From Streptomyces sp. NBS 14/10 (lineage in GTDB: Bacteria; Actinomycetota; Actinomycetes; Streptomycetales; Streptomycetaceae): a stretch of DNA of 64,000 nt. The notes under the pieces are model-generated. The model searched no databases, was not told the DNA's origin, and saw nothing but the letters and a program-made list of their open reading frames with translations. The stretch lies in assembly GCF_002224125.1 (NCBI RefSeq), contig NZ_NCSM01000016.1, positions 12,342 through 76,341 of the forward strand, written 5' to 3'. Each line of letters opens with the position of its first letter. The first letter of the stretch is position 1. Shown piece by piece: positions 20 through 18,751 of the stretch. Made by a program: the position numbers and the translations under genes.

Positions 20-1300
20 TCACGCCCGCCGCCCCGGCCGCGCCGCCTCGGCGCCCAGCCTCACGGGCAGCCGGACGAGCTGCCGGGTGCCCGGCACCGG
101 ACGCCACGCCAGCTCCGCCTCCTCAACAGCGAGTTCAAGCTGCGGAAAACGGCCGAAGAGCGTCCCCAGCGCGATCTCCGCCTCCTGGTCGGCCAGTGTG
201 GCCCCGAGGCAGTGGTGCGGCCCGCGCGAGTACGCCAGGTGCCGCCCGCCCTCGCCGTCGGGCCGGCGGGTGATGTCCAGCCGCTCGGGCTCCGGGAAAC
301 GCCGCGGATCGTGGTTGGCGGCGCCCTGTACGGGCAGCACCACATCGCCCTTGCCGATCGGCGTGTCCGCGACCCGGATCTCCTCCGTGGCGTACCGCGG
401 TTTGCCGAACACCATCGGACTGCACCAGCGCAGCAGCTCCTGTACGGCCTCCGGCATCCGCTGCGGCTCGTTCGCGAGGAGCGCGAGCTGGCCGGGGTGG
501 GTGAGCAGCGCGAGGATGCCATTGCCGATCAGGCCGGCGGTCGTCTCGTGTGCGGCGACGATCAGGTGGAACGCCATGGTGACCACCTCCGTGTCCGACA
601 GCCGCTCGCCCTCCGCGCCCTGCGCCATGAGCCCGGTGATCAGGTCGTCCGCCGGTTCGGCGCGGCGCCGCCGAACCAGCTCCCGGAGATGGCCGCCGGA
701 CTCCGTGAGCATCTTCTTCAGCCGCAGGATGTCCGCGTAGTCATGGCTCCATTTCCGCCATCTCGCCCGGTCCTCGGCCGGTACGCCGAGCAGTTCGCAG
801 ACGACCGCGATCGGCAGCGGATCGGCGAAGTGTTCGACCAGGTCGACGGTCCCGGTCCCGTCCACGGCGTGCACCGGCAGCGCGTCGACCAGCTCGTCCG
901 CCAGCGCCCGCACCCGGGGCAGCAGGGCGGGGACACGCGCCGAGAACGCCCCCGCGACCAGCTCGCGCAGCCGTGTGTGATGTGGCGGATCGAGTTGGGT
1001 GATGGCGCGGGTGAGCAGGGGCAACAGCTCCTCGGACAGGCCCAGCCAGGTCAGCGACTCGGCATGGCGGTTCGTGGTGGTGCCGGGCACCGACTGGGAG
1101 TTGCTGACGAAGCGCTCATCGGTGAGCACGGCGTGCACATCGTCGTAGCGGGTGACGATCCAGATGTTCCGGCCGTCCGCCAGGGAGCCCAGGGCGACGG
1201 GCGCCTCCTCCCTGATCCGCCCGAAGCCGTGGTACGGATCGGCGGTCAGCTCCGGGTCGTTGAGGGAGATCGGGCACCGGCCCGGTTTCTCTGGTGTCAT
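20..1300 (-). CDS. Cytochrome P450 monooxygenase (first of two)
   Basis: Protein of 426 aa, the usual length of a soluble bacterial class I P450. The heme loop reads YSRGPHHCLG, with the thiolate ligand Cys364; Tyr replaces the more usual Phe at its start. The I-helix oxygen motif AHETT and the K-helix ExxR (ELLR) are present, so it should be a working enzyme. The start chosen is the ATG at 1300, preceded by a good ribosome site (GGAAGG). The open frame continues 143 codons further upstream, but that part has no P450 homology and runs through the promoter region and into the next gene. It is transcribed away from the epoxide hydrolase gene. It probably hydroxylates or further oxidises the polyether skeleton; the site cannot be told from sequence. 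It has no ferredoxin beside it and may share the one at 16996. Confidence 0.93.
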   Translation of the reverse strand: MTPEKPGRCPISLNDPELTADPYHGFGRIREEAPVALGSLADGRNIWIVTRYDDVHAVLTDERFVSNSQSVPGTTTNRHAESLTWLGLSEELLPLLTRAITQLDPPHHTRLRELVAGAFSARVPALLPRVRALADELVDALPVHAVDGTGTVDLVEHFADPLPIAVVCELLGVPAEDRARWRKWSHDYADILRLKKMLTESGGHLRELVRRRRAEPADDLITGLMAQGAEGERLSDTEVVTMAFHLIVAAHETTAGLIGNGILALLTHPGQLALLANEPQRMPEAVQELLRWCSPMVFGKPRYATEEIRVADTPIGKGDVVLPVQGAANHDPRRFPEPERLDITRRPDGEGGRHLAYSRGPHHCLGATLADQEAEIALGTLFGRFPQLELAVEEAELAWRPVPGTRQLVRLPVRLGAEAARPGRRA

Positions 1301-1478
1301 CTTCAGGCCTTCCGTCGTCGGCCATGCCATGCCGTCCCATGCCATGCCATCCGGGACTGTGCGGAGGATCGCCGATCCGCCTAAAGCAGCCCTGTCGCTG
1401 CCACGTCGCGCGGCAAGGGCAGCTTTAGAGCGCTCGGCAAGGGTGACTGCTCGGGGTCCTGAAGCCAGGGAGGACACG
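1301..1478. promoter_or_regulatory. Divergent promoter region with putative operator
   Basis: This 178-nt gap separates the first P450 (leftward) from the epoxide hydrolase (rightward). It holds CCATG-type short repeats at about 1322-1352. Positions 1367-1396, read on the minus strand, match 15670-15699 at 28 of 30 bases. Around it lies an inverted repeat with CTAAAGCAGCCCT at 1381-1393 and its near complement at 1416-1428 (12 of 13 bases), with a 22-nt spacer. No convincing -10/-35 pair was assigned. Confidence 0.6.
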
Positions 1479-2348
1479 GTGATCAACGAGCGCCCGCGCA
1501 AGCGGATCGCACTCGAACACAGCCGGCGCCTGAGCGCGGGCGATATCGACGCGCTCCTCGACCTGTACGCGGAGGACGCCACGTACGAGGACCCGGTCGG
1601 AGCCGGTGGCGGCAGTGGCCGCGAGGCGCTGCGCGCACACTTCGAGAGCGCCGTGGCCGGAAACGTCCAGGAGACCGTGGAGGACACGGTCGTCGGGCAG
1701 GACGGCACCCATGTGCTGTCCCGGATCACCGCGGTGATGGACTACCGGCCCCGTGGCCCGGTGTACGCCGACCGCGGATGGGTGCCACCGCCATCGGGCG
1801 CGGAGCCGGCCGGTCTGCGCTACCACTACGCGCTGCTGCTCCGCGTCGGCGAGTCCGGCCTCATCGAGGACATGCGGGCGTACTGGGGCCGGCCCGATAT
1901 CGAGCTCTCGGCGGACGGCACACCGGAGTCGTTCCGCGGCCCCGACACCATCACCCCCCGCGAACTGGACCTGAGGCGGTTGCCGGAGAAATACCTCGGG
2001 CGGCTGCTCAAGGGCGATATCGAGGGGACCGTCGCCATGTTCACGGAGGACATCGTCTTCGAGGACCCGGTGGGCGGTATGAAGCTGCACGGCAAGGACG
2101 CCCTGCGCAAGCATGTGTTCCGCGGCTCCGAGAACAAGGTGCACGAGGTGCTCGGTCGGCCCGTCTCGTCGATGGACGGACGGTTCGTGGTGATCCGGGG
2201 GGACGCCCGGGTGTTTGTACCGGCCGAGATGCGCATGCGCATGATCACCATCTGTGAGGTGAACGAGGACGGCCTCGGCGCGCATATCCGGGGGTTCTGG
2301 GGGCTCACGGACCTGACGATGGGGCTTTCCCCGAAAGACCCGCTTTAG
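1479..2348 (+). CDS. Two-domain polyether epoxide hydrolase / cyclase (Lsd19/MonB type)
   Basis: Protein of 289 aa made of two SnoaL/ketosteroid-isomerase-fold halves (about 10-140 and 165-285). From memory it resembles Lsd19 of lasalocid biosynthesis, which opens two epoxides in sequence by acid/base catalysis. The Lsd19A catalytic pair, Asp38 and Glu65, fall at exactly the same numbers here (in YEDPVG and VQET). The second half has its own pair, Asp196 (FEDPVG) and Glu223 (VHEV). Both halves should therefore be active and form ether rings from epoxides made by the next gene. The start is GTG 1479, with AGGGAGGA four bases upstream; this gives an N-terminus in register with Lsd19. A hairpin follows the stop. 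It is the first gene of the plus-strand post-PKS operon. Confidence 0.88.
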   Translation: MINERPRKRIALEHSRRLSAGDIDALLDLYAEDATYEDPVGAGGGSGREALRAHFESAVAGNVQETVEDTVVGQDGTHVLSRITAVMDYRPRGPVYADRGWVPPPSGAEPAGLRYHYALLLRVGESGLIEDMRAYWGRPDIELSADGTPESFRGPDTITPRELDLRRLPEKYLGRLLKGDIEGTVAMFTEDIVFEDPVGGMKLHGKDALRKHVFRGSENKVHEVLGRPVSSMDGRFVVIRGDARVFVPAEMRMRMITICEVNEDGLGAHIRGFWGLTDLTMGLSPKDPL

Positions 2349-2350
2349 CC

Positions 2351-2383
2351 GCCTCGGACACCCTCATGACGGGTGTCCGAGGC
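2351..2383 (+). terminator. Perfect 13-bp hairpin after the epoxide hydrolase gene
   Basis: GCCTCGGACACCC (2351-2363) and its exact complement (2371-2383) are separated by 7 nt and begin two bases after the stop codon. There is no T-run, as is common in actinomycetes. It could be a partial terminator, an attenuator or an mRNA-stabilising structure, because the next gene starts only 64 nt later on the same strand. Confidence 0.6.
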
Positions 2384-2446: not shown

Positions 2447-3883
2447 ATGACCACACCGACACGCGCCGTTGTGCTGGGCGGCGGATGGGCCGGCATGCTG
2501 ACCGCTCATGTGCTGGCCCGCCACGTCGAATCCGTGACCGTGGTGGAACGTGACATCCTGCCCGACGGGCCGCACCACCGTAAGGGACAGCCGCAGGCCC
2601 GCCACGTCCACGTCCTGTGGTCCAGTGGCGCGGGCATCGTGGAGAACCTGCTGCCGGGCACCGCCGAGCGGCTGCTGGCGGCCGGTGCGCGCCGGATCGG
2701 CTTCCAGCGCGACCTGGTGACCCTGACCGCGTGGGGCTGGCAGTACCGCTTCCCGGCCACCGCGTACGCGATGATGTGCACCCGCCCCCTGCTCGACTGG
2801 ACGGTGCGCAGCGCGATCCTGGCCGACGGCCGGATCCAGGTCGAGCAGGGCACCGAGGCCGTAGACCTGGCCGGTGACCGCTCCCGGGTGACCGGGGTCC
2901 GGGTGCGCGAGGTGGACGGCGGCGAGACCAGGCTGCTCGAGGCGGACCTGGTGGTGGACGCCACGGGTCGGGCCTCGCGGCTGGGCCGCTGGCTGGCGGC
3001 CCTGGGCCTGCCGGCCGTCGAGCAGGACGTGGTCGACGCCGGTATCGGCTACGCCACCCGCATGTTCAAGGCGCCCGAGGGCGCGGGCGACACCTTCCCC
3101 GCGGTCCAGGTGGCCGCCGACCCCCTCACCCGGCAGCCCGGCCGCTTCGGCGTGGTCTACCCCCAGGAGGGCGGCCGTTGGCTGGTCACGCTGACCAGTA
3201 CGCGCGGCGCCCCGCTGCCCTCCCAGGAGGACGAGTTCCGGGGCTACGCCAAGGAGCTGCGGCATCCGATCGTCAGCGACCTGATGAGCGTCGCCGAGCC
3301 CATCAGCTCGATCTTCCAGTCGCATTCGGGCGCCAACCGGCGGCTGTACCCCGAGCGCATGCCACAGTGGCCGGAGGGTCTGCTGATCCTCGGCGACTCG
3401 CTGGCGGCGTTCAACCCGGTGTACGGCCACGGCATGAGCTCGGCCGCCCGCGCCGCCGAGGCGCTGGACAAGGAGTTGGCGCGCGACGGCTTCGGCGAGG
3501 GCGGCACCCGGCAACTTCAGCGGGCGCTGAGCGAGGTGGTCGACGATCCGTGGATCATGGCCGGGCTCAATGACATCCAGTACGTCAACTGCCGCAACCT
3601 CTCCCGCGATCCGCGGCTGACCGGCCCGGACACCGCGGAGCGGCTGAAATTCTCCGACTACGTCTCCAGCAAGTCGATCCGGTCGCCGAAGGTCTGCGAG
3701 GTCGCCACCGGCGTGCTGTCCCTGAACGCGCCGCAGAGGGCCCTGGGCGACCCCGGATTCCTGTCGTTGCTGCACAGCGACACCAGTTACCCGGAGCTCG
3801 TCGAACCGCCGTTCCGCCCCGAAGAGCTGGAGACGGTCGGGCTCAAGCCCTCCGGCACCGCCGCCAAGGGCGTGTTCGACTGA
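2447..3883 (+). CDS. FAD-dependent polyene epoxidase (Lsd18/MonCI type)
   Basis: Protein of 478 aa, about the length of Lsd18, which epoxidises the alkenes of the linear polyketide in lasalocid biosynthesis. The N-terminal Rossmann motif GGGWAGM (11-17) binds the FAD ADP moiety, and a second FAD motif reads GDSLAAFNPVYGHGMSSA. Long stretches recall Lsd18, for example KGQPQARHVHVLWS and LLDWTVR. The start is ATG 2447, with GAGAGGA nine bases upstream; the longer frame to 2366 would begin inside the preceding hairpin. Its likely substrates are the alkenes made by the DH-KR modules of the minus-strand PKS, held on an ACP. Together with the upstream hydrolase it forms the polyether ring-making pair. 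Confidence 0.9.
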   Translation: MTTPTRAVVLGGGWAGMLTAHVLARHVESVTVVERDILPDGPHHRKGQPQARHVHVLWSSGAGIVENLLPGTAERLLAAGARRIGFQRDLVTLTAWGWQYRFPATAYAMMCTRPLLDWTVRSAILADGRIQVEQGTEAVDLAGDRSRVTGVRVREVDGGETRLLEADLVVDATGRASRLGRWLAALGLPAVEQDVVDAGIGYATRMFKAPEGAGDTFPAVQVAADPLTRQPGRFGVVYPQEGGRWLVTLTSTRGAPLPSQEDEFRGYAKELRHPIVSDLMSVAEPISSIFQSHSGANRRLYPERMPQWPEGLLILGDSLAAFNPVYGHGMSSAARAAEALDKELARDGFGEGGTRQLQRALSEVVDDPWIMAGLNDIQYVNCRNLSRDPRLTGPDTAERLKFSDYVSSKSIRSPKVCEVATGVLSLNAPQRALGDPGFLSLLHSDTSYPELVEPPFRPEELETVGLKPSGTAAKGVFD

Positions 3884-14612: not shown

Positions 14613-15575
14613 CTACGGACGGGCGTCGTGTGCCTTCTCGCCGCCAGCCTTAGTGCTGCCTGTATTCCTGCTGCCTGTATTCCTGAAGACGGCCTGCCAG
14701 AAGTAGCTCCAGGGGAGGCCCCGGGTGTCCGCGGCGCAGGTCCATCGGTCGGCGGGCCGGTAGGCGTCGATGAAGGCGGGCACGGCCGCGGCCACGGCCT
14801 CGCTGTCGTGGATGTCGAGCACCTGCCGCAGCGGGCCGGTCTCCATGGCCAGCTTCACGGCCTCTTCGCCCTTCTGGTGGCCGTCCATGCTCTTGTCCCG
14901 GAACTTTCCGACCGGGTTCTTCACGAAGAACGCCCCGCACCTCTCGTCGATCAGGCGCAGATAGGCCTTGACGGTGTCGGGGGTCATCTCCGTGAAGGAG
15001 TGCACATTGACGCACAGGTCGAAGCGGTCCGTGCCCAGTGCCGTGTCGATGTCCTCCACCTGCACGAACTTCAGCTTGGCGAACTGCTTCTCGTCCAGGA
15101 CCGCACGCAGATACGCCCTGCTCAGCGAGAGCGTGTTCTTCAGGTCGATGATGGTGTACGAGGCGAGGTCGTAGTTGGACAGCATCGAGTGGCAGGTGCG
15201 GCCGTAGCCCGCGCCGATCTCCAGGACGTGGGCGCCGTCCAGGTCCACCTCCTTCTCGATGAATCCGAGTTCAAGCGCCGCCTGGAGATAGTCCAGGCAT
15301 ACGGACTTGCCCTCGTAGCGGACCGTGACCGGATCTCCCACCTCACGGTTGCGAACACTCTCGATCTTAGACCAGTCGTCGTCGCCCAGCCGCGTGGCCA
15401 GTTCGTACACAAGGGCCCGCAAATACCTGATTCCGTTGGCCGTCGGATCCCAAAGGGCGAGATTGAAATTCCGTCGGTCCGACTTGAAACCGGTCAGATC
15501 GGTGGCCGCGTCCTCGGTGACCCAGAGTTCACTGATGCGCTCCCACTGTCGGCTGGCCTGAAAAACCTCTGCCAT
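14613..15575 (-). CDS. Putative sugar O-methyltransferase (NanM-like)
   Basis: Protein of 320 aa with a SAM-binding motif [10 protein letters not shown] at 117-126 and a long N-terminal region typical of the putative sugar O-methyltransferase family that includes NanM. NanM is assigned to methylation of the deoxysugar of nanchangmycin. It is the first gene of the minus-strand sugar operon (O-methyltransferase, ketoreductase, 3-dehydratase). Its ribosome site is GAAGGAGA. It probably methylates the free hydroxyl at C-4 of the deoxyhexose; the position is inferred from NanM and not seen in the sequence. The C-terminus carries a 15-nt tandem duplication (two NTGSR units). Its substrate could instead be the polyether itself. 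Confidence 0.8.
14655..14684 (-). repeat. Exact 15-nt tandem duplication at the methyltransferase C-terminus
   Basis: GCTGCCTGTATTCCT occurs twice with no change, within the last 15 to 20 codons of the methyltransferase. It adds five residues without changing the frame. Confidence 0.9.
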
Positions 15576-15799
15576 CCCGCTCTCCTTCTGCGCCTTGTCC
15601 GTCGGCGTCGGTCGCGTCCCGGTGCTGGGAAGTCTCCAGGCGGCCGCTAAAGGCGGACTAACTCGGGTTGACAGTTCTGCTTTAGGCGGATCGGCGATCG
15701 TCTCCTGGGAGAGATGCGTGGCCAGAGACGTGTGGCCAGAGAAACGTGGCCAGAGAAACGTGGCGGCGAAACGCGGGCGGCGAAAGGGAGAACCACACC
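15576..15799. promoter_or_regulatory. Second divergent promoter region with the same putative operator
   Basis: This 224-nt gap lies between the methyltransferase (leftward) and the second P450 (rightward). Positions 15670-15699 match the minus strand of 1367-1396 at 28 of 30 bases. The inverted repeat CTAAAGGCGGACT (15647-15659) and AGTTCTGCTTTAG (15673-15685) matches at 10 of 13 positions, with a 13-nt spacer. A consensus -35 hexamer TTGACA lies at 15668-15673, inside the element, but no clear -10 follows. In both promoters the conserved half points toward a P450 gene. Confidence 0.65.
15718..15772 (+). repeat. Four imperfect 13-15 nt tandem repeats in the P450 leader
   Basis: GTGGCCAGAGAAAC occurs exactly at 15732-15745 and 15746-15759, with shorter or altered copies on either side (15718-15729 and 15760-15772). 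It lies in the untranslated leader, between the operator-like element and the P450 ribosome site. Its function is unknown. Confidence 0.85.
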
Positions 15800-16993
15800 A
15801 TGCGGGACACCCCTATCAGCTTTCCTCTGCGGGGGCGCCCCGGACCATTCGACCCGCCCGCGGTGCTGGGACAGCTGCGGGAGGAGCGGCCGATCGCGCC
15901 CATGCGATTCGCCGACGGCCATGTGGGCTGGCTGGTCACGGGGTATTCGGCGGTGCGCGCCATTTTGGGGGACGCCCGGTTCAGCACCCGGCTGGAGCTG
16001 GGTCACCGGATCGTCGATGTGCCGACGGCCCAGCTCTCGGGCCAGACCACGGGCCCCGGTATGTTCCCGCTGATGGACCCCCCGGATCACACCCGGTACC
16101 GGCGGCTGCTGATGGCCGAGTTCACCGTCCGGCGGATGAAGCGGCTCGAATCGCGGATCGCGGAGATCACCCACGGGCGCCTCGACGCGATGGAAGCCGC
16201 CGGTTCACCGGCGGACCTCGTGGCGGAGTTCGCCTCCCCGGTCCCGGCCCTGGTGATCTGTGAACTGCTCGGCGTCCCCGACGAGGACCGGGAGGAGTTC
16301 CGGCTGGCCGTGGAGGCCCTGTTCTGCTGGGACACCACCCCCAAGGAGGCACAGGCCGCCCTGGCCGTCACCCTCCGCGTGTTCCCCGCGCTCATCGCGC
16401 GCCGGCGCGCCGAACCCACTGACGACATCTTCAGCGGTCTGGTCCACAACGCCGAACTGACCGACCAGGAACTGGCCACCATCGGCTACATCCTGCTCGC
16501 CAGCGGCCTGGAGACCACCGCCAACATGCTGTCGCTCGGCACCTTCGCCCTGCTGTGCCATCCCGAGCAGAAGGAGGCGCTGCGCGGCGACCCGGATCTC
16601 ATCGACACCGCGGTGGAAGAGCTTGTGCGCTATCTGTCCATCGCCCAGTACGGCTCCGTGCGCACGGCCTTGGAGGATGTCGAGATCGAAGGGACGCTGA
16701 TCGGCAAGGGGCAGTCCGTCCTGGTGTCGATGTCGGCGGCCAACCGCGACGCGGCGCGCTTCGGCGACCCCGACACGCTCGACATCACCAGGCCCATCGG
16801 CGGCCATATCGGCTTCGGCCACGGCTTCCACCACTGCCTGGGCCAGCAACTGGCCCGCGCCGAGATGCGACAGGCGTTTCCCGCGCTGCTGGACCGCTTT
16901 CCCGAGCTGCGGCTGGCCGTTCCGCCCGACGAGGTCCCGACCGCGGAGGACCGGTTCACCTACGGTGTCCACCGGCTGCCGGTGGCGTGGTGA
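15800..16993 (+). CDS. Cytochrome P450 monooxygenase (second), coupled to a ferredoxin
   Basis: Protein of 397 aa. The heme loop FGHGFHHCLG contains the thiolate Cys346; ExxR is ELVR, and the I helix has SGLETT in place of AGxET. The start is ATG 15800, with AAAGGGAG nine bases upstream. A longer frame from 15746 would add 18 residues coded by the leader repeats and is not supported. The gene ends two bases before its ferredoxin and is the first gene of a P450-ferredoxin-glycosyltransferase operon. It probably puts in the hydroxyl that is later glycosylated, or another late oxidation. It keeps its heme Cys, so it is not an EryCII/DesVIII-type glycosyltransferase helper, although it lies next to such a transferase. 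Confidence 0.94.
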   Translation: MRDTPISFPLRGRPGPFDPPAVLGQLREERPIAPMRFADGHVGWLVTGYSAVRAILGDARFSTRLELGHRIVDVPTAQLSGQTTGPGMFPLMDPPDHTRYRRLLMAEFTVRRMKRLESRIAEITHGRLDAMEAAGSPADLVAEFASPVPALVICELLGVPDEDREEFRLAVEALFCWDTTPKEAQAALAVTLRVFPALIARRRAEPTDDIFSGLVHNAELTDQELATIGYILLASGLETTANMLSLGTFALLCHPEQKEALRGDPDLIDTAVEELVRYLSIAQYGSVRTALEDVEIEGTLIGKGQSVLVSMSAANRDAARFGDPDTLDITRPIGGHIGFGHGFHHCLGQQLARAEMRQAFPALLDRFPELRLAVPPDEVPTAEDRFTYGVHRLPVAW

Positions 16994-17283: not shown

Positions 17284-18651
17284 ATGCGCGTCCTGTTCGT
17301 CACATTTCCCTGGCATACCCACTTCCAGTTCTGTGCGCCGATGGCCTGGGCCCTGCGCACCGCGGGCCACGAGGTTCACTTCGCGGGCAGCCCCGACCTC
17401 ATCGACGTCATCACCGGGGCAGGACATACGGCCGTCCCGGTCGGCCCCGATGAGCCCTTCACCGAGCGGGCATACCGAGCGCGCGAGAACGTACAGGGGA
17501 AGCTCAAGGAAAGCGGCGTCATCAACGACACGAGCGGCGACACGAGCGGCGGGTCGGGCGGCGGGTCGGGCAGCGATTCCGGGAGCGGGAACGCCCCCGT
17601 CCTCGATCTCGGTGAGAACGGCGAGGAAAACCTCCCCTGGAGCTATCTGAAGCTGATCGCCGCCGGTTCCACCGAGGTGGCCAAGCTCGCCAATGACGCG
17701 ATGATCGACGATCTGGTCGCGTACTGCCGCTGGTGGAAGCCCGATCTGGTGGTGTGGGAGTGGCTGACGTACGCGGGCGCCGTCGCCGCCGCCGCGGTGG
17801 GCGCGGCCCATGCGCGGATGCCGATCGGCATCGAGGTCGAGGCCCGGATCCGCCGCCACTTCGTGAAGGTACGGGACCAGCAGCCCCCGGCCGACCGCGA
17901 GGACCCCATGCGGGACTGGCTCGGAGGGTGGGGGGACAAGTACGGTTTCGAGTTCTCCGAAGATCTGGTGACCGGGCAGTTCACGATCGACCAGGTGCCG
18001 GACTCGATGCGGCTGGCCTGCGAGGTGCCGCATGTCCCGGTCCGTTACGTGCCCTACAACGGCCCCGCCGTCGTGCCCGAGTGGATCCGCGGCGAACCGC
18101 GGGCGCCGCGGGTCCTCGCCACCTTCGGGACGAGCATGTGGGACACGGACAAGTCAGGGCTCGTCCTCGACAGCCAGCGGGTGTCCAAGGACCAGCTTCA
18201 GGACATGCTGGACTCGCTGGCCGACCTCGATATCGAGCTCGTGATGACCCTGCCGGTCAGCATGCAGAAACAGCTGGAGCACATTCCGGACAACGCGCGG
18301 TTCGTCGAGTTCGTGCCCATGCACACCATCGTCCCGTCGTGCGCGGCCGTGATCCACCACGGTGGACTTCCCACCTTCCTCAGCTCGCTGGCCCATGGGA
18401 TTCCGCAGATCATGCTCACCTGGATGGCCCCGGACGCCTCGGTGCGCGGCGCCCGCCTGCACAAGGCCGGGGCGGGCGAGTGGATTCCGCCCGAGCGGAT
18501 GACGGGCCGGCGGATCCGGGACACCCTGGTGCGGCTGCTGGACGACCCGTCGGGCGCCCAGCGGCTCCGTGACGAGGTACGGGCCCAGCTGTCCCCCAAC
18601 GACGCGGCTCCGGAACTGGAGCGGCTGGCCGCCCGGTTCGGTTCTCGCTGA
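17284..18651 (+). CDS. Macrolide/polyether-type glycosyltransferase (GT1, EryCIII/DesVII-like)
   Basis: Protein of 455 aa of the GT-B fold. The N-terminal acceptor domain begins RVLFVTFPWHTHFQF. The C-terminal donor domain has the HHGG signature at 358-361, followed by a Ser/Leu-rich helix and GIPQIML. It should transfer the dTDP-deoxyhexose made by the cluster to a hydroxyl of the polyketide. The start is ATG 17284, with GAGAGGAG nine bases upstream; the in-frame ATG at 17275 touches the ribosome site. Residues about 81-103 are a Gly/Ser/Asp repeat in the N-terminal domain. Relatives such as EryCIII and DesVII need a heme-less P450-like partner. None is visible here, so this enzyme may be partner-independent or the partner may lie outside. 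Confidence 0.9.
   Translation: MRVLFVTFPWHTHFQFCAPMAWALRTAGHEVHFAGSPDLIDVITGAGHTAVPVGPDEPFTERAYRARENVQGKLKESGVINDTSGDTSGGSGGGSGSDSGSGNAPVLDLGENGEENLPWSYLKLIAAGSTEVAKLANDAMIDDLVAYCRWWKPDLVVWEWLTYAGAVAAAAVGAAHARMPIGIEVEARIRRHFVKVRDQQPPADREDPMRDWLGGWGDKYGFEFSEDLVTGQFTIDQVPDSMRLACEVPHVPVRYVPYNGPAVVPEWIRGEPRAPRVLATFGTSMWDTDKSGLVLDSQRVSKDQLQDMLDSLADLDIELVMTLPVSMQKQLEHIPDNARFVEFVPMHTIVPSCAAVIHHGGLPTFLSSLAHGIPQIMLTWMAPDASVRGARLHKAGAGEWIPPERMTGRRIRDTLVRLLDDPSGAQRLRDEVRAQLSPNDAAPELERLAARFGSR
17524..17592 (+). repeat. Gly/Ser/Asp low-complexity insert in the glycosyltransferase
   Basis: Short in-frame repeats (GACACGAGCGGC twice, then GGCGGGTCG units) encode a flexible stretch of about 23 residues rich in Gly, Ser, Asp and Thr, near residues 81-103. 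Confidence 0.8.
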
Positions 18652-18669
18652 CTGTCCTGACCCAGAGCT

Positions 18670-18733
18670 CCTGAGCCCCTGAGCCCCTGATTCCCTGATT
18701 CCCTGAGTCCCTGAGCCCTTGAGCCCCTGACCC
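18670..18733. repeat. Eight copies of an 8-nt tandem repeat beside a terminator
   Basis: Eight consecutive 8-nt units follow the pattern CCTGANNC: GAGCC, GATTC, GAGTC and GACCC variants after CCT, with one CTT. They run straight into the terminator stem, whose left arm is made of the last units. It is non-coding, between convergent genes. Confidence 0.9.
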
Positions 18734-18751
18734 CGCCGGGGTCAGGGGCTC
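18721..18751. terminator. Bidirectional terminator between the glycosyltransferase and the PKS operon
   Basis: GAGCCCCTGACCCC (18721-18734) pairs perfectly with 18738-18751 across a 3-nt loop. It lies between the stop of the plus-strand glycosyltransferase and the stop of the minus-strand PKS operon. No T-run follows. Confidence 0.85.

Follow-up and report, generated by a model that had tools for sequence, protein, structure and literature searches.

The window analysed here is a 64,000-nt stretch of DNA (C36:12342-76341, on a contig of 247,882 bases). Judged by gene content, it belongs to a nanchangmycin-type polyether (ionophore antibiotic) cluster, because a nanM-type methyltransferase, an epoxide hydrolase, an epoxidase, deoxysugar genes and tandem small SARPs are all present. 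The genes around the element under study are, in window coordinates:

20..1300, minus strand: P450-1 gene
1479..2348, plus strand: polyether epoxide hydrolase, nanI-type, with two SnoaL-like domains
2447..3883, plus strand: FAD-dependent epoxidase
14613..15575, minus strand: nanM-type sugar O-methyltransferase (TIGR04371, 185 bits against a cut-off of 44)
15800..16993, plus strand: P450-2 gene, followed by a ferredoxin gene and then the glycosyltransferase gene
17284-18651: glycosyltransferase of the activator-dependent family (464 bits against a cut-off of 440)

The cluster further contains genes for an acyl carrier protein, a thioesterase-type alpha/beta hydrolase and modular PKSs, together with the deoxysugar genes. 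The automatic gene caller overlooked P450-1, which was located separately, and extended one PKS frame across a run of N. Against a model of P450-derived activators, P450-1 and P450-2 gave matches below the cut-off only, and a plasmid search with NanM returned two weak partial matches. The glycosyltransferase gene and a PKS gene converge, and between their ends lies, at 18661-18738, an 8-nt tandem repeat (CCCTGAGC-like) with at least seven copies in register. A tandem pair of small SARP genes, transcribed divergently from the PKS operon, lies at 88,141-89,763 of the contig, ~12 kb past the end of the window. Both products carry Trans_reg_C and BTAD domains and have AfsR as their best relative with a solved structure; their identities are 97% and 98% to a tandem pair of S. 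milbemycinicus (G394), and 86% and 88% to one of S. sparsogenes (G392). Adjoining the SARP pair, at 90.4-93.4 kb of the contig, are two histidine-kinase-like genes and a response-regulator gene, an order kept in both of these species.

A first-pass annotation of the window had reported a 30-nt element shared by two divergent intergenic regions, each copy facing a P450 gene. Re-alignment of positions 1367-1396 (minus strand; GACAGGGCTGCTTTAGGCGGATCGGCGATC) with 15670-15699 (plus strand; GACAGTTCTGCTTTAGGCGGATCGGCGATC) confirmed identity at 28 of 30 bases and an unbroken run of 23, and our own gene calls likewise returned just these two divergent intergenic regions in the window, with P450-1 and P450-2 downstream of the respective copies. 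Extended, the alignment of the two P450-side copies comes to 30 of 33 nt (91%). When both intergenic regions were subjected to dinucleotide shuffling (n=1000), the best 30-nt match averaged 18.5 and never exceeded 22; no shuffle reached 28/30, which rules out a chance match. The annotation had named a dispersed repeat as the reading that a genome search could expose. Across all 127 contigs of the genome (12,145,312 bases), the 20-nt core occurs as two exact copies, with one extra place at three mismatches. Among 392 genomes of the genus, the 17-nt core is found at up to one mismatch in 10, and exactly in this genome only. With two exact core copies genome-wide and the near matches in the genus isolated, a dispersed repeat is ruled out as well.

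The same two regions hold weaker copies that had been overlooked (1414-1444, plus strand; 15661-15631, minus strand). Further overlooked copies lie at the epoxide hydrolase stop codon (2334-2364, plus strand) and, beyond the window, ahead of the PKS operon that runs through it. An initial idea, a simple inverted repeat (CTAAAG...CTTTAG), was resolved into divergent direct-repeat operators. The six cluster sites align as NNAGNNN-N4-TTAGNNN-N7-NANNNT, that is, two heptads 11 bp apart, then a 7-bp spacer and then a -10-like ANNNT. The 30-nt element reaches from heptad 1 to most of the -10, and the best reading is therefore a whole core promoter of SARP type, consisting of a predicted operator and a -10. 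Five such predicted promoters lie in the window:

1365..1395, minus strand: SARP-type core promoter of P450-1; heptads ACAGGGC (1395-1389) and TTAGGCG (1384-1378), -10-like GATCCT (1370-1365)
1414..1444, plus strand: SARP-type core promoter of the epoxide hydrolase gene; CAAGGGC, TTAGAGC, -10-like AAGGGT
2334..2364, plus strand: SARP-type core promoter of the epoxidase gene; AAAGACC, TTAGCCG, -10-like CACCCT; overlaps the epoxide hydrolase stop codon
15631..15661, minus strand: SARP-type core promoter of nanM; TTAGTCC, TTAGCGG, -10-like GAGACT
15671..15701, plus strand: SARP-type core promoter of P450-2; heptad 1 ACAGTTC, heptad 2 TTAGGCG, -10-like GATCGT

The sixth site, outside the window, belongs to the first PKS gene of the leftward operon and has its -10 ~65 nt before the gene start; by our own count, the distance from -10 to start codon gives leaders of ~34 to 98 nt. 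The first heptad is poor at both P450 sites and at the epoxide hydrolase and epoxidase sites, which have AG alone in common. In the P450-2 leader, between core promoter and start codon, three head-to-tail 14-nt units (AGAGAAACGTGGCC-like) occupy 15710-15764.

According to the passages on AfsR-SARP in PMC10936776, the spacing of SARP repeats is 11 or 22 bp, 8 bp separate the 3' repeat from the -10, and the SARP dimer binds the -35 region in a side-by-side arrangement (PMC10936776; also PMC10972967). The 11-bp phasing of the six sites and their distance to the -10 are therefore consistent with this rule. What marks a SARP operator is found here together: direct repeats at 11 bp, the -10 distance, SARP genes in the cluster and recurrence at six promoters. 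The proposal of the annotation that the element is the site of a cluster-specific regulator, with a SARP among the candidates, is thus supported by repeat spacing, -10 distance and the nearby tandem SARP genes. We consider it highly probable that this 30-nt element acts as a core promoter dependent on SARPs and that six promoters of this kind serve the cluster genes together. The anatomy of the repeats, their position, their concentration in the cluster, their conservation and the SARP genes are seen directly, and the definition of the site is well supported by the sequence comparisons. The mechanism would be an ordinary one: SARPs bound at the heptads would recruit RNA polymerase to a weak -10 that lies 7 bases further downstream, and the six promoters would jointly activate the PKS operon, the epoxide hydrolase, the epoxidase, the sugar methyltransferase and both P450 genes. 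Binding by these particular SARPs, activation and the transcription starts are inferred. Co-control of tailoring and sugar genes, also proposed by the annotation, fits this picture; the sugar gene nanM, however, would be reached through its own neighbouring operator and not through the 30-nt element.

Because TTAG pairs 11 bp apart were seen upstream of nanM in two other genomes, the pattern was written as AGN5YTTTAG. It has 23 matches in this genome, six of them in one 74-kb stretch of the cluster (13.7 to 87.6 kb of the contig), where they face P450-1, the epoxide hydrolase, the epoxidase, nanM, P450-2 and the first PKS gene; the cluster contig has none beyond this stretch. Such clustering has a binomial probability of ~5e-9, for a pattern derived from some of the same sites. 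A version with 12-bp spacing, an unplanned control, gave 16 matches in the genome, none on the cluster contig. The ANNNT -10 occupies the identical spot at 6/6 cluster sites versus 2/17 other genomic matches (Fisher 3e-4); in other genomes, it is at the exact spot in 8/11 sites and shifted by 1 nt in the remaining three (Fisher 2e-3), for a total of 14 of the 17 tabulated sites (six here, 11 elsewhere). For these Fisher values, orthologous sites are not independent, and the -10 rule was read from the same data. Operator and -10 combined match 10 times in the 12.1-Mb genome, with six matches within the polyether cluster, and four times in each of G298, G392 and G394, with two in the cluster in each. 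TTAGN7TTAG alone is unspecific, with 17 matches in this genome, two in the cluster and 15 elsewhere.

Many of these 15 outside pairs are 11-bp direct repeats of a GTTAG-GGGACGTTAG-like family with up to three units, present on contigs C33, C38, C47, C62, C80, C82, C108 and C115, several near contig ends; the family is possibly another regulon or a repeat. A similar operator-like site with a -10 precedes, in three species and away from the polyether cluster, a gene whose large product is secreted-protein-like (C39:117017-117045, G394:C673:2079 and G392:C98:4800), and the 24 kb read around the C39 site contain no polyether cluster.

The sites recur in relatives. In both S. milbemycinicus and S. 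sparsogenes they are found at nanM, at the glycosyltransferase gene that faces it and at the PKS gene (3/11 and 3/9 genomic matches, respectively). The 17-nt nanM operator, GTTAGTCCGCCTTTAGC, is identical in these two species and the present strain while its flanks differ, and the PKS operator is likewise conserved in both species. At the epoxidase site, three relatives have the variant CTTAAG for CTTTAG with an unchanged -10; this site overlaps the end of a coding region, and part of its conservation may be coding. A more distant polyether cluster (G298) has sites before nanM, a PKS gene and a P450 gene (3/7 genomic matches), the P450 being 59% identical to P450-1. The G326 cluster has no exact AGN5YTTTAG, only a variant at nanM; genome-wide, the pattern matches 12 times in G393 and five times in G395.

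For a wider view, we took 19 of the 30 SARP matches outside this genome (E <= 1e-70, 392 genomes searched) with their flanks, 338 kb altogether. TTAG pairs occur there eight times at 11-bp spacing, one of the eight being the G326 nanM site known beforehand, and zero times at 13 other spacings. AGNYTTTAG-type pairs number 11 at 11-bp spacing and 0 to 4 at other spacings. By our own count, these amount to 16 distinct sites in 13/19 SARP stretches, with the -10 at the exact spot in 11/16; the other six of the 19 SARP neighbourhoods are without a site, and the other 5/16 sites are without a -10 at that spot. A 181-kb comparison set, which partly covers the G326 PKS region, has two TTAG pairs at 11 bp.

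Common regulation may be just part of the reason why the two P450 promoters are so alike. That one core promoter was copied when the P450 genes joined the cluster is an explanation that we favour somewhat, and it would complement SARP control. At the 20 positions left free by the operator, the P450 pair agrees at 18, other non-orthologous pairs agree at 11 at most and orthologous nanM pairs agree at 14 (13/17 sites compared, near-duplicates from relatives omitted). The epoxide hydrolase gene of S. sparsogenes and S. sp. NRRL F-5123 comes immediately after the PKS gene, with neither a P450 nor a promoter of its own; in S. milbemycinicus and S. sparsogenes, nanM directly faces the glycosyltransferase gene, and the fetched stretches of these relatives contain no P450 match. 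This excess likeness of the pair, together with relatives that lack a P450 at either place, argues for a copied promoter, and we infer that both P450 genes were added, with one core promoter copied between or with them. Against this, the flanks beyond 33 nt are without match and the P450 proteins are just 36% identical, which therefore speaks against simple gene duplication, and a search of the 392 genomes turned up no donor cluster carrying this promoter. P450-1 has relatives at E <= 1e-125 in G298 only, among those genomes; relatives of P450-2 (up to 60% identity) occur in 129/392 at E <= 1e-110 and are thus too common to indicate a donor.

Binding by another regulator, such as a LuxR/LAL activator or the two-component response regulator encoded next to the SARPs, appears improbable: although the two kinase-like genes and the response regulator, which has a GerE domain, adjoin the SARP genes and are conserved in relatives, direct repeats with 11-bp phasing set against the -10 are what the passages of PMC10936776 report for SARPs, and the same phasing is seen beside related SARPs in other genomes. 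Ordinary constitutive promoters, or chance or a dispersed repeat, are the least credible account, since the sigma-70-like -35 TTGACA adjoining the P450-2 copy (15669-15674) has by eye no usable -10 at the usual distance of 17 bp and is replaced by GCGACA at the P450-1 copy, and the shuffles and the two exact core copies leave no room for the others.

The predicted SARP control of the six promoters resembles known systems. The afs box of AfsR and other SARP operators, as presented in passages of PMC10936776 and PMC10972967, also have 11-bp direct repeats upstream of pathway genes, with 7-8 bp between the 3' repeat and a weak -10; unlike them, the sites here often have a degenerate first repeat, and the heptad is headed by TTAG, whereas the AfsR site at afsS is given as CGTTYATCGNN (PMC10972967). 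As in the NanR1/NanR2 system, a pair of small SARP genes adjoins a polyether cluster that contains nanM along with epoxide hydrolase, epoxidase and deoxysugar genes, a likeness based on gene content, with the SARP proteins themselves compared with the S. milbemycinicus and S. sparsogenes pairs. A difference is that, where the present cluster carries P450-1 and P450-2/ferredoxin, two relatives have no P450. A passage of PMC9312159 names NanR1 and NanR2 as activators of the nanchangmycin polyketide genes. ChlF2 and NigR, in published passages 55% and 57% identical to NanR2 and thus of the same small-SARP subfamily, are described there as activating several operons; the protein for gel shifts was reportedly unobtainable for both groups, and these passages give no operator sequence, as against the operator predicted here. 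Among the matches listed in one open literature library, whose scope does not extend to the primary NanR1/NanR2 paper (Yu et al. 2012), none describes an operator for this subfamily, a hint that the operator may so far be undescribed.

The analysis offers a testable predicted operator and target-gene list for the activator pair of a polyether ionophore. An operator derived from sequence is useful here because gel-shift work on ChlF2 and NigR reportedly failed, and its simple pattern might serve to locate promoters targeted by related small SARPs. The common P450 promoter suggests a route by which a cluster gains control of newly acquired tailoring genes. It is a tentative generalization, and one that we put at somewhat below even chances, that tailoring genes enter polyether clusters with a copied ~33-nt SARP core promoter and that TTAG-N7-TTAG-N11-ANNNT is the common operator of a whole small-SARP subfamily. 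If true, a newly gained P450 would be under cluster control at once, and the pattern could predict the targets of small SARPs in uncharacterised clusters.
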